Translations under genes and position numbers: made by a program
Notes under the pieces: model-generated
What the model saw: only the letters and a program-made list of their open reading frames with translations
Databases searched by the model: none
Told to the model about the DNA's origin: nothing
Shown: piece after piece, positions 22,259 through 61,387 of the stretch
Layout: the number at the start of each line of letters is the position of its first letter
How positions within the stretch are numbered: the first letter of the stretch is position 1
From: Sphingobacterium paludis
GTDB taxonomy: Bacteria; Bacteroidota; Bacteroidia; Sphingobacteriales; Sphingobacteriaceae
NCBI RefSeq assembly: GCF_004364125.1
Contig: NZ_SNZV01000006.1
Location: 124,001-188,000, forward strand
Length of the DNA: 64,000 bases
Direction: 5' to 3'

Positions 22259-22345
22259 ATCCCTATTTGTTATTTGTTGTGTCAATATAGAAAAAAGAAA
22301 TAGATTTTTTTTAAAAAAAATTTGGACTTAGTGTATAAAACACAC

Positions 22346-22353
22346 TATATTTG
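22346..22353 (+). promoter_or_regulatory. Promoter of small RNA copy 1
   Basis: TATATTTG fits the -7 consensus exactly; TTG at 22322-22324 is 21 bases upstream as -33 element. Transcription should start near 22360. Confidence 0.6.
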
Positions 22354-22359
22354 TATCAT

Positions 22360-22426
22360 CATAATTTAGGTTTATAATTGGTTAGCTAAAGGTTTTCATT
22401 CTCCCCGTTTGAAAACCTTTTTTTTT
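22360..22426 (+). ncRNA. Candidate small RNA, family member 1
   Basis: About 67 nt: 5' motif AGGTTTATAATTGGTTAGC (22368-22386), then an 11-bp terminator stem AAAGGTTTTCA / TGAAAACCTTT with loop TTCTCCCCGTT and a long T run. It has its own consensus promoter and is not followed by a gene within a plausible leader distance (next ATG at 22549 is beyond the terminator). Members 2 and 3 at 44142 and 61306 share motif and 11-nt loop but have different stems. Confidence 0.65.
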
Positions 22427-41406: not shown

Positions 41407-43998
41407 TTATTTTAAGTTATAGCGCAATGTTACACCATAGGTTCTTGGATCGCCGATAACCCCGGCGTACTGCCCATAACTGCCCGGCGCAGCCAGTAGT
41501 TGTTCGTAATAATCGGTACCGGCGATGTTTCTTCCCCAAAGAATGACCGAAAGACCATTTGCAGCACGAAACCCAACACGGCCGTTAAGTAGGCCATACC
41601 CTTCAATATTCATGTAGGCCGATGGCGATGGACTAGACGAAAATGTGGAACGATAAAAAACATCTGCACCGACGAAGAAGCTTCCGGGAAGGCTAATCAG
41701 TTTTCCCTTTCGGCTATATTCTGCCCCAAATGAACCTGACCATTTTGAGATGCCCGGCAGCTGTCCACCAGAAACATCTTTAAAAGCCTCAGGTCCGCCG
41801 ACCTCTTCGAGTGGAACAGGGGCGTTTGTAAAGCGAACATACTTCCCATCGGTGTAGGCAAATGCTGTATTCAGCAAAAGGCTATTGAAGAGACGAACGC
41901 TTCCATCCACCTCGACGCCCTGCACGCGCACTTTTTCAGCATTGGCCAAATACCCCCGGTTGACGCCCGGGTCTGGTGTTTGCACCAAGGTTTGATAATC
42001 TTTTATATCCGTTTGATACACGGTAAAATTGAGAATGGCGTTGCGCATTGGAATGGTTTTCACACCCAACTCCTTGTGATGCACCGCTTCCGGCTTTACG
42101 CGAGCCAATTCAAGCAGCACTTCCCCATTCGCGGTCGGCAGTCCGCCCACGTTAATGCCGATTGGCTTATAGCTCACCGAGTACGTAGCAAACGTATTGA
42201 ATTGAGGGCTAAATTTATACTGTGCAGATAATTGTCCAGACCAATTCCCAGCCGACGCGTCTGTGTTAAACGACTGATCGGTATAGATGCCGTTTTTTAG
42301 CGCTTGCAGAGCCGGGTCTGATGTTTCCAAGCCGCCGTAGCGCTGCCGGTCATAGTTTGCTACCTTTTTATCATAGTTATAGCGTAAGCCAGGCAAAATG
42401 TGAAACTTCTCGGTCACGGCCCAATCAATTTGTGTGTAAGCCGCCAAGCTTGTCGATTTGATGCCGTACTTGGTACGGATGCCGTAATTATCAAACAAGC
42501 CGGGAGTTTCCCAAAGCTCGCTTGTAGAACTTTGCGCAAAGCGCCACAGCGCCGGCCCAGCTTCCTCCGTGTGCACCGGATCGGTTCGTAAATCTTGCCA
42601 CAAGCCATATAAACCAACCACACCACTCACCTTTTCACTGATCTTTCCGGAATATCTAAATTCCTGCGACCATTGATCATGCACCGAGTTTCCCGCCGAT
42701 ACGGTGAAAACAGGTAAACCCAAATAATCCCGATCATTCAATGGCACCCAATCCCAATAGCGCCATGCCGACGTTGATGTCAACGTCCCGTTACCGATTT
42801 TTATATCGGCATTGACCGATATCCCACCGAGTTCATTATCAGCTTTGGATTGTGTATCCAGATCTACTTTACGTTCAAATGCACTAGTATAGGGAACAGT
42901 ATAACCTAAATCGGCAATAATATTATTGAATTGTCGATAGTCGGCACGTTGCGTTTGCACCACGCCGGCGATTCCCCAGCCATAGCCATCTGGCTTCTGC
43001 TTAGAAACATCTCCGGCAACAACGATCTTGATATCCTCCGTAGGTGTATATAGCAACTGACCGCGAAAACCTAGGTTATTGATATTGTTTATATCCCTAT
43101 TCGTATGCACATTATACAATGTACCATTACGCTGGGTGCCGGAAAACGAAACGCGTGCCGCTAATTTTTTCGATATAGGGCCTGTCAACGACGTTTTCGC
43201 CTGGATAAAACCGTAATTACCATAGCTAAGTTCGAAATTTGCTTCCGGGCTAAATTGTGGCAGGCGCGTCGTAATGTTGAAGGCTCCCGCCGTCGTATTT
43301 TTTCCGAACAAGGTACCTTGTGGCCCACGCAAAACCTCGATTTGTTCAATATCAATAAAATCGAGCCAAGTGGCAGCTGGCCGTGCGATATACACACCAT
43401 CTAAATAGAAGCCTACGCCGGGGTCTATACCGTCATTCGTCAATCCGTATGTCGACCCCAGACCGCGAATATTCAAGGTCGTATTACGTGCGTTAGACGT
43501 ATACAGTTGCACCGTTGGAACCAATTCCTTAAGGCGATTTACATTGAACGCACCTGCATCTTCTATGGCTGCTCCGCGAATCAAGGATACTGGAATGGGA
43601 ACATCCTGCAATTGCTCTCGACGCCGACGCGATGTGACAACGACCTCACTTAAATTTTCCGTAATAGGCTTAAGTTCAATCACCGTGGGCGAAGTAGAAA
43701 CCACCACGGTTTTCTTTTCGTAGCCGACGTAAGATAAAACCAGTGTGAAGGGTAATTTCTGTCCTGTAACAAATTGAAATCCGCCATCCCGATTGGTACG
43801 AACGCTGTGCGTTACCGCTTCCAGCTGCACGGTTACACCCTCTATAGGTTCACGGGTATCGGCATCAATCACGGTTCCCTCTAGCGAAGCATTAATTATT
43901 GGTTTCGTTTCTACTTGTGCTTGCGCAGGCAAGCTGCATAGCGCGATAAAAAGTGTTAAGATGCTGTACGCATAAAGACGCACTTTTCTTCTTTCCAT
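41407..43998 (-). CDS. TonB-dependent outer membrane receptor (iron-complex type)
   Basis: 863 aa from MERRKVRLYAY at 43998; the longer frame runs back over the promoter. Signal peptide ends SLPAQAQ. Carboxypeptidase-regulatory domain (about 40-110, GTVIDADTREPIEGVTVQ), TonB box-like LSEVVVTSRRR, plug with LQDVPIPVSLI, LNIRGLGSTYG, GFYLDGVYIARPA and IEVLRGPQGTLFGKNTTAGAFNI, all typical of the pesticin/FyuA-like group widespread in alphaproteobacteria and Bacteroidota. Barrel ends LRYNLK. Ligand unknown. Confidence 0.92.
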   Translation of the reverse strand: MERRKVRLYAYSILTLFIALCSLPAQAQVETKPIINASLEGTVIDADTREPIEGVTVQLEAVTHSVRTNRDGGFQFVTGQKLPFTLVLSYVGYEKKTVVVSTSPTVIELKPITENLSEVVVTSRRRREQLQDVPIPVSLIRGAAIEDAGAFNVNRLKELVPTVQLYTSNARNTTLNIRGLGSTYGLTNDGIDPGVGFYLDGVYIARPAATWLDFIDIEQIEVLRGPQGTLFGKNTTAGAFNITTRLPQFSPEANFELSYGNYGFIQAKTSLTGPISKKLAARVSFSGTQRNGTLYNVHTNRDINNINNLGFRGQLLYTPTEDIKIVVAGDVSKQKPDGYGWGIAGVVQTQRADYRQFNNIIADLGYTVPYTSAFERKVDLDTQSKADNELGGISVNADIKIGNGTLTSTSAWRYWDWVPLNDRDYLGLPVFTVSAGNSVHDQWSQEFRYSGKISEKVSGVVGLYGLWQDLRTDPVHTEEAGPALWRFAQSSTSELWETPGLFDNYGIRTKYGIKSTSLAAYTQIDWAVTEKFHILPGLRYNYDKKVANYDRQRYGGLETSDPALQALKNGIYTDQSFNTDASAGNWSGQLSAQYKFSPQFNTFATYSVSYKPIGINVGGLPTANGEVLLELARVKPEAVHHKELGVKTIPMRNAILNFTVYQTDIKDYQTLVQTPDPGVNRGYLANAEKVRVQGVEVDGSVRLFNSLLLNTAFAYTDGKYVRFTNAPVPLEEVGGPEAFKDVSGGQLPGISKWSGSFGAEYSRKGKLISLPGSFFVGADVFYRSTFSSSPSPSAYMNIEGYGLLNGRVGFRAANGLSVILWGRNIAGTDYYEQLLAAPGSYGQYAGVIGDPRTYGVTLRYNLK

Positions 43999-44127
43999 AA
44001 ATGAATGTATTAATAGATATATGTTCGTTGACAACGCCAATTGCAACTTATGAAGGCAAATATAAAAATTGTTACAATAAAGTCTACTAATTTTGTAGAT
44101 TATTTTTGTGCTTTCATTTTTTATCCC

Positions 44128-44135
44128 TAGTTTTG
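44128..44135 (+). promoter_or_regulatory. Promoter of small RNA copy 2
   Basis: TAGTTTTG fits TAnnTTTG; TTG at 44106-44108 lies 19 bases upstream. Divergent from the receptor gene at 43998. Confidence 0.6.
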
Positions 44136-44141
44136 GTGTAT

Positions 44142-44209
44142 CATAAAGAACATAAGGTTTATAATTGGTTAGCAAAAGGTTCCATTCTCCCCGTCTGGAA
44201 CCTTTTTTT
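44142..44209 (+). ncRNA. Candidate small RNA, family member 2
   Basis: The 19-base 5' motif AGGTTTATAATTGGTTAGC is identical to member 1. The terminator stem here is AAAAGGTTCCA / TGGAACCTTTT, so TTTTCA/TGAAAA of member 1 has become TTCCA/TGGAA with both sides changed, and the loop is TTCTCCCCGTC. It has its own promoter and no coding frame. About 68 nt. Confidence 0.65.
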
Positions 44210-44433
44210 ATTGCACCTTAAAACCAACTTGAACGATTGCTAGCGCGAGGCACCACAAGGTAAGCGTAGACTGGACATGATAATAACTGCAGCGACATCG
44301 CTTATCAATGCGCAAGCCACGAAACGTATCACGATTAATCGATGAACAGATGGAAACGGCACACCTGCATGCCGACCGGCATCTGAAAATATAGTATGGC
44401 ACTGATTACGTTTTCCGTATCAAAAAAAGGACA

Positions 44434-61200: not shown

Positions 61201-61305
61201 TTTAATTTGTATTAATTGAGCGTGTATCCTGTATCTACGGTGAACAATGATCCTTCAGAAAAGTTTATAAAGCAAAATTATCGCAAAAATGTCATTTTTG
61301 GCATA

Positions 61306-61387
61306 CAAATTGCCGTGATGTGGATAGGTTAATAATTGGTTTGGTAACCCTTCACGCCGCCCGGTTGTGGAGGGTTCCGTTTTTTTA
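61306..61387 (+). ncRNA. Candidate small RNA, family member 3
   Basis: Motif variant AGGTTAATAATTGGTTTGG, then stem GG-AACCCT-T-CAC / GTG-G-AGGGTT-CC with 11-nt loop GCCGCCCGGTT and a T run. Loop length and CCC-n-GTY core agree with members 1 and 2 while stem sequence differs, which supports conserved structure. The -7 box (CATTTTTG, 61293-61300) is weaker and no -33 TTG is evident. Confidence 0.55.

Follow-up and report, generated by a model that had tools for sequence, protein, structure and literature searches.

The window analysed here, a 64,000-nucleotide stretch of Sphingobacterium paludis DNA, contains three related short elements on its forward strand, which we refer to as members 1 to 3. 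Each was matched by a covariance model (CM) of the family, and the elements and their signals are laid out as follows.

22357-22424, + strand: member 1 (CM 87.5 bits, E 4e-17)
22321-22353, + strand: -33/-7 promoter of member 1, Bacteroidota type, read directly (TTTG at 22321-22324, TATATTTG at 22346-22353)
22330-22346, + strand: inverted repeat AGTGTATAAAACACACT of member 1, between the promoter boxes, found by exact-pattern search
22357-22386, + strand: single-stranded 5′ block CATCATAATTTAGGTTTATAATTGGTTAGC of member 1, the predicted seed (CM match, AUC of SusC pairing)
22368-22386, + strand: motif AGGTTTATAATTGGTTAGC of member 1, read directly
22388-22426, + strand: terminator hairpin of member 1 with C-rich loop and T-run (fold z -2.47, covariation)
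44144-44210, + strand: member 2 (CM 65.5 bits, E 2.5e-12)
44128-44135, + strand: -7 element TAGTTTTG of member 2, read directly
44155-44173, + strand: motif of member 2, with hairpin AAAAGGTTCCA/TGGAACCTTTT and loop TTCTCCCCGTC
61316-61381, + strand: member 3 (CM 41.1 bits, E 5.5e-7)
61299-61313, + strand: sigma-54-type -24/-12 element TGGCATACAAATTGC of member 3, from its sequence pattern
61326-61344, + strand: motif of member 3, with a 10-11-bp hairpin and the variant loop CCGCCCGG

An earlier note on this DNA had described the promoter, motif, 11-bp stem, 11-nt loop and T-run of member 1, and all of these are letter-exact on re-reading: the stem is AAAGGTTTTCA/TGAAAACCTTT, the loop TTCTCCCCGTT lies at 22399-22409, and the T-run ends at 22426. 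Two further members, placed by the note near 44142 and 61306, also exist, with their motifs at 44155 and 61326 and with swapped stem bases that are compensatory in both cases. The statement that both keep the motif and the loop holds in part: member 2 retains the loop, but the loop of member 3 differs, and its motif keeps 16 of 19 letters. Allowing up to three mismatches, the 19-mer motif occurs three times in the window, compared to 0.04 expected. The sequence upstream of member 3 lacks a -33/-7 promoter and carries the sigma-54-type element instead. Member 2 is arranged head-to-head with an opposite-strand TonB-dependent receptor gene (41407-44175). Elsewhere in the window are a Flavo-1 sRNA (RF01705; 10620-10704, − strand, 58.5 bits, above its gathering score) and, at about 59081 on the + strand, a sigma-54-like site, TGGCATGTCTTTTGC, upstream of an exported 178-aa protein; the latter is among the few strict sigma-54 sites outside the sRNA family in the DNA examined.

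The window has three members, but in the genome as a whole the model finds 33 copies at E<0.004, of which 30 score E≤0.0021 and three lie near 0.003. The 4.78-Mb genome has 40 occurrences of the 10-mer ATAATTGGTT, versus 13 of the reversed pattern. Reading of the flanks revealed the full architecture in 28 copies, 27 of them distinct in sequence, with TTCATAATTTAGGTTWATAATTGGTTWG followed in turn by a stem whose sequence varies, a C-rich loop and a T-run. The copies form two sub-types in one register: type A with the loop TTCTCCCCGTT, and type B with AATCCTGAAG-CTCCCCG-CTTCAGGATT. The 5′ block (consensus UUCAUAAUUUAGGUUWAUAAUUGGUUWG) is unstructured and near-invariant, and the terminator hairpin is variable yet base-paired. 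Within the genome, 88% of cells in the stem alignment are paired, 12 of 14 base pairs show two-sided changes, and none of 500 shuffles matches the score. For 61 copies from other species, whose alignment was fitted to the model and so leans towards the structure, 95% of cells are paired, 12 of 14 base pairs again show two-sided changes, and 139 cells carry such changes, versus 29 in shuffles. These covarying stems, at home and in foreign copies, bear out the trans-acting family envisaged in the earlier note, as does the lack of any tie to neighbouring genes: all 30 copies examined as loci are intergenic, with varied neighbours in all orientations, and the family has stand-alone promoters. A comparison with Rfam, also proposed in the note, found no family above its cut-off, the closest by function being FopS (RF04319), and the family is new to Rfam and to the literature within the extent searched. 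Judged from sequence, this is a real multicopy sRNA family of about 65-75 nt with about 30 paralogues per genome, and its behaviour at the RNA level is predicted.

A covariance-model search beyond this genome, which the note had suggested as a check, found further homologues across the order, in Sphingobacterium, Parapedobacter and other genera of the same family, and in copies from other species the stems covary. In an order-level search, 205 of 250 genomes contained matches, with 7 to at least 20 in every genome of the same genus and 0 to at least 20 in other genera. Named matches to the 28-mer block come from Sphingobacterium, Parapedobacter, one Rhinopithecimicrobium and bacterium A37T11. 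In relatives the hairpin and loop are changed and the 5′ block is kept. Farther out, the model gives weak matches in about 33 genomes elsewhere in the class (L416-L433), some with AGGTTAATAATTG-type 5′ ends plus a terminator; these may point to a broader superfamily in Bacteroidota that would take in FopS. Tandem pairs of family copies also occur.

About 45 viral contigs carry family copies, frequently just 3′ of tRNAs. Within phage tRNA arrays the tRNA 3′ end runs straight into the block, as in loci L345 and L325 (both tRNA-Asp), and a search of INPHARED phages and PLSDB plasmids for the family gave no credible match. The S. paludis genome has its own example at C3:230647 (L095), in a prophage tRNA array between the portal and major head genes. 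This prophage (G000:C3:224001-244000, L403) encodes a terminase, a portal and a major head protein along with a cluster of normal and degenerate tRNAs; the embedded member has no T-run, and its hairpin matches that in viral contigs L308, L318, L340 and L359. In several related genera the sRNA is preceded by a tRNA-like element of about 110 nt (seen at L283, L284, L285, L288, L297, L298 and L301), with the pattern TGTAGGGTGGTGAAATTGGCAGACACACCTCCTTGTCTCGGTGGCGGAGA ... GGGAAA ... TAACCACTCC ... TTCGA ... CCCTACAGC, a long variable arm and a covarying acceptor stem. ARAGORN detects this element only with introns allowed, Rfam does not report it, and an exact 30-letter pattern for it had no match in the viral contigs. 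Locus L285 has two such elements in tandem, each followed by an sRNA, and L283 has one without an sRNA.

One and the same 5′ block stands downstream of three kinds of signal: a -33/-7 promoter, a sigma-54 promoter, or the 3′ end of a tRNA or tRNA-like element. For the first kind, 11 of 25 own-genome copies have TAnnTTTG, or something close to it, ending 8-30 nt upstream of AGGTT. Four of these copies, all type A (L404-L407), have an AGTGTA-N5-TACACT-type repeat before the -7 box. In this promoter context the exact inverted repeat is present four times in the genome, only at family members, with 0 for the reversed-pattern control, and AGTGTATAAAACACACT is a likely operator for a regulator. For the second kind, 35 of 225 family copies carry the strict sigma-54 site TGGCAY-N5-TTG at a fixed distance, against an expectation of 0.0006 per window; the offsets run from -21 to -26, with 25 of the 35 at -23, and the genome encodes rpoN (189.5 bits). 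This spacing predicts a start at TATTCATAATT. The element of member 3 is closer in, giving a predicted +1 at about 61325, at AGGTT, so that the seed would form the extreme 5′ end. Overall, the RNA 5′ end is predicted near TATTCATAA, and at AGGTT for copies of the member 3 type. Because three unrelated upstream signals converge on one block, selection would seem to act on the RNA rather than on the DNA.

The genome has 56 SusC/RagA genes. We compared the RNA with translation start regions (-60 to +30) of 55 SusC genes and of 421 other genes from part of the genome, with start codons called mechanically and duplex energies computed without accessibility. The type-A 5′ end favours SusC starts (AUC 0.73, p=1e-8), and the 18-nt motif alone does so more strongly (AUC 0.763, p=1e-10). 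The 5′ ends of members 1, 2 and 3 give AUCs of 0.744, 0.711 and 0.651, respectively. Controls gave 0.58 for the reversed RNA, 0.38 for the complement and 0.35 for the reverse complement, and 60 shuffles of the full 5′ region, a null that covers this region and not the 18-nt motif, had a mean AUC of 0.435 and a maximum of 0.566. Moreover, the signal persists against dinucleotide-shuffled targets (p=3e-8). Duplexes of -16 kcal/mol or better form at 14 of 55 SusC starts versus 8 of 421 others (p=2e-9), and a perfect 8-mer complement is present in 15 of 55 versus 27 of 421. Predicted pairing is centred at -26 to -10, and the best site, GCUAACGACUAUAAAUCUUAAUGUAUGAUG (locus L259; -22.0 kcal/mol), covers the start codon. 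For most SusC genes the predicted pairing is modest, and the SusC within the window shows little (-9.9 kcal/mol). Just four SusC starts were available in the loci examined from other species (p 0.06 and 0.01). A genome search for the block's reverse complement, allowing up to three mismatches, gave only the antisense of the members themselves, so target pairing must be imperfect. These data support the 18-nt motif, and not the C-rich loop (AUC 0.398), as the part complementary to a coherent target class, the SusC start regions.

The closest precedent is FopS of Bacteroides thetaiotaomicron (BTncRNA_FopS), which represses susC translation by pairing with the start region and is opposed by RbpB (PMC11697453). 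Both families comprise multicopy paralogous sRNAs, FopS being about 65-70 nt, with phage copies and a conserved single-stranded 5′ region followed by one terminator; the 5′ core AGGUUAAUAA is common to FopS and the B-type copies here, and susC is the target class of FopS and the predicted one here. FopS differs in having 12-15 copies versus about 30, and the C-rich loop, sigma-54 copies and tRNA-linked copies belong to the family here. The FopS model (gathering score 56 bits) reaches at best 23.7 bits genome-wide and 14.7-16.1 bits on member 1. In the R1/R1′ seed, the Rfam consensus AAGGUUAAUAAAAGAUU and UAGGUUAAUAAUUGGUU have a 10-nt core in common and otherwise differ; the Rfam FopS 5′ end pairs weakly with SusC starts here (AUC 0.57), and none of 16 matches to an exact FopS 17-mer in phages is followed by the expected hairpin. 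The Bacteroides RNA GibS carries the R1 seed of FopS and base-pairs at translation starts (PMC7366714, PMC11697453), but it is a single-copy 145-nt RNA with extra hairpins and was not detected in the DNA examined here. LhrC- and ErsA-type sRNAs also have a C-rich unpaired segment and score 15-20 bits against Rfam cut-offs of 50-110; what they share is the loop, which lies outside the conserved core of this family. Taken together, the new family probably resembles FopS in how it works, with predicted repression and with an unusual repertoire of promoters and carriers.

With moderate confidence, we propose that these are FopS-like seed sRNAs that repress SusC/TonB transporters, part of them under sigma-54 control, without Hfq or an RRM protein. 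Since the shared 5′ bases fit SusC starts unusually well, porins are probably what is switched off. In this mechanism AGGUUWAUAAUUGGUUAG would mainly pair around -26 to -10 of SusC/RagA TonB-transporter starts, with AGGUUUAUAAUUGGUUAG as the segment of the shared block in the proposed susC pairing, and would block SusC translation the way FopS does in Bacteroides. The paralogues would differ chiefly in how they are switched on: by a housekeeping promoter, in four cases with the AGTGTA-N5-TACACT operator; by sigma-54, plausibly under envelope or surface stress; or, in phage tRNA arrays, by being freed from tRNA precursors.

Some RNAs act instead as a sponge or titration pool for a protein, as CsrB-type sRNAs do. 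If the 5′ block were mainly a site for an RNA-binding protein and the many copies formed such a pool, SusC complementarity would be secondary; we consider this unlikely, though it has points in its favour. About 28 nt are near-invariant in some 30 paralogues and in phages, which exceeds the usual seed length, and FopS itself binds a protein, RbpB (PMC11697453). Such constancy beyond the needs of a seed suggests that a protein may bind the block as well. However, the SusC-start complementarity is specific, with negative shuffled, reversed and loop controls, and no short motif is repeated within one RNA. No candidate chaperone turned up: Hfq was absent from the 21 genomes searched, and RRM_1 had no match in this genome (with a positive Bacteroides control), leaving no RRM protein for the role of RbpB.

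The earlier note pointed to C-rich loops of other bacterial sRNAs that pair with G-rich targets, a reading in which the loop would be the active part here too. CCC is indeed a feature of the loop in 24 of 27 distinct own-genome copies, compared to 5 of 89 other terminator hairpins. Relatives (with GCCCA or CTGGATGGA) and many phage copies nonetheless alter the loop while the 5′ motif stays unchanged, and SusC starts are not favoured by the loop (AUC 0.40). G-rich Shine-Dalgarno sites are rare in Bacteroidota messages, which further weakens the idea, and we now regard it as very improbable. We likewise give very little credence to a mobile DNA element, or a phage attachment or tRNA-array spacer, that spreads selfishly and has no RNA function. 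The viral and tRNA-adjacent copies, the prophage copy in the portal/head interval and the tandem pairs would suit such an element, but they are outweighed by covarying stems with a conserved single-stranded block, by fixed promoter spacing (sigma-54 included) and terminator T-runs, and by varied surrounding sequence and presence in all same-genus genomes. That the copies are ordinary terminators or attenuators of adjoining genes, as a hairpin plus T-run might suggest, is barely tenable given their own promoters, neighbours in all orientations, conserved 5′ block and a C-rich loop unlike that of other terminators.

For the proposed FopS-like repression of SusC there are precedents in other bacteria. 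In Salmonella, sigma-E sRNAs shut down OMP messages (PMC1804206), and in Flavobacterium psychrophilum sigma-54 drives chaperone, envelope-stress and surface-function genes (PMC9723704), so a route from sigma-54 through sRNA to SusC shut-off would parallel the sigma-E sRNAs. RybB and MicA of Salmonella and E. coli are likewise driven by an alternative sigma factor and shut down outer-membrane proteins; the analogy is one of logic only, as they are unrelated in sequence, few in copy number and dependent on Hfq, which is absent here. Among the Rfp sRNAs of F. psychrophilum, which are not known to form a paralogous family, Rfp36 is preceded by a sigma-54 (SM4) promoter (PMC9723704), the feature it has in common with the family here. 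A more far-reaching version is possible, if doubtful: sigma-54 would induce a battery of near-identical sRNAs that shut down dozens of SusC transporters at once, with neither Hfq nor an RRM protein, and phages would encode copies of their own within tRNA arrays. The family would then be the Bacteroidota equivalent of the outer-membrane response mediated by sigma-E and RybB, and tRNA processing would free the phage copies, lowering SusC proteins at the cell surface during infection or in lysogeny.

Regulation by sRNAs is almost uncharted in Bacteroidota beyond gut Bacteroides, in a phylum mostly without Hfq. With about 30 copies, testable predicted targets, three expression routes and carriage by phages, this family offers a concrete system, and it opens the questions of how SusC porins are balanced under stress and what a phage may gain from such an RNA.
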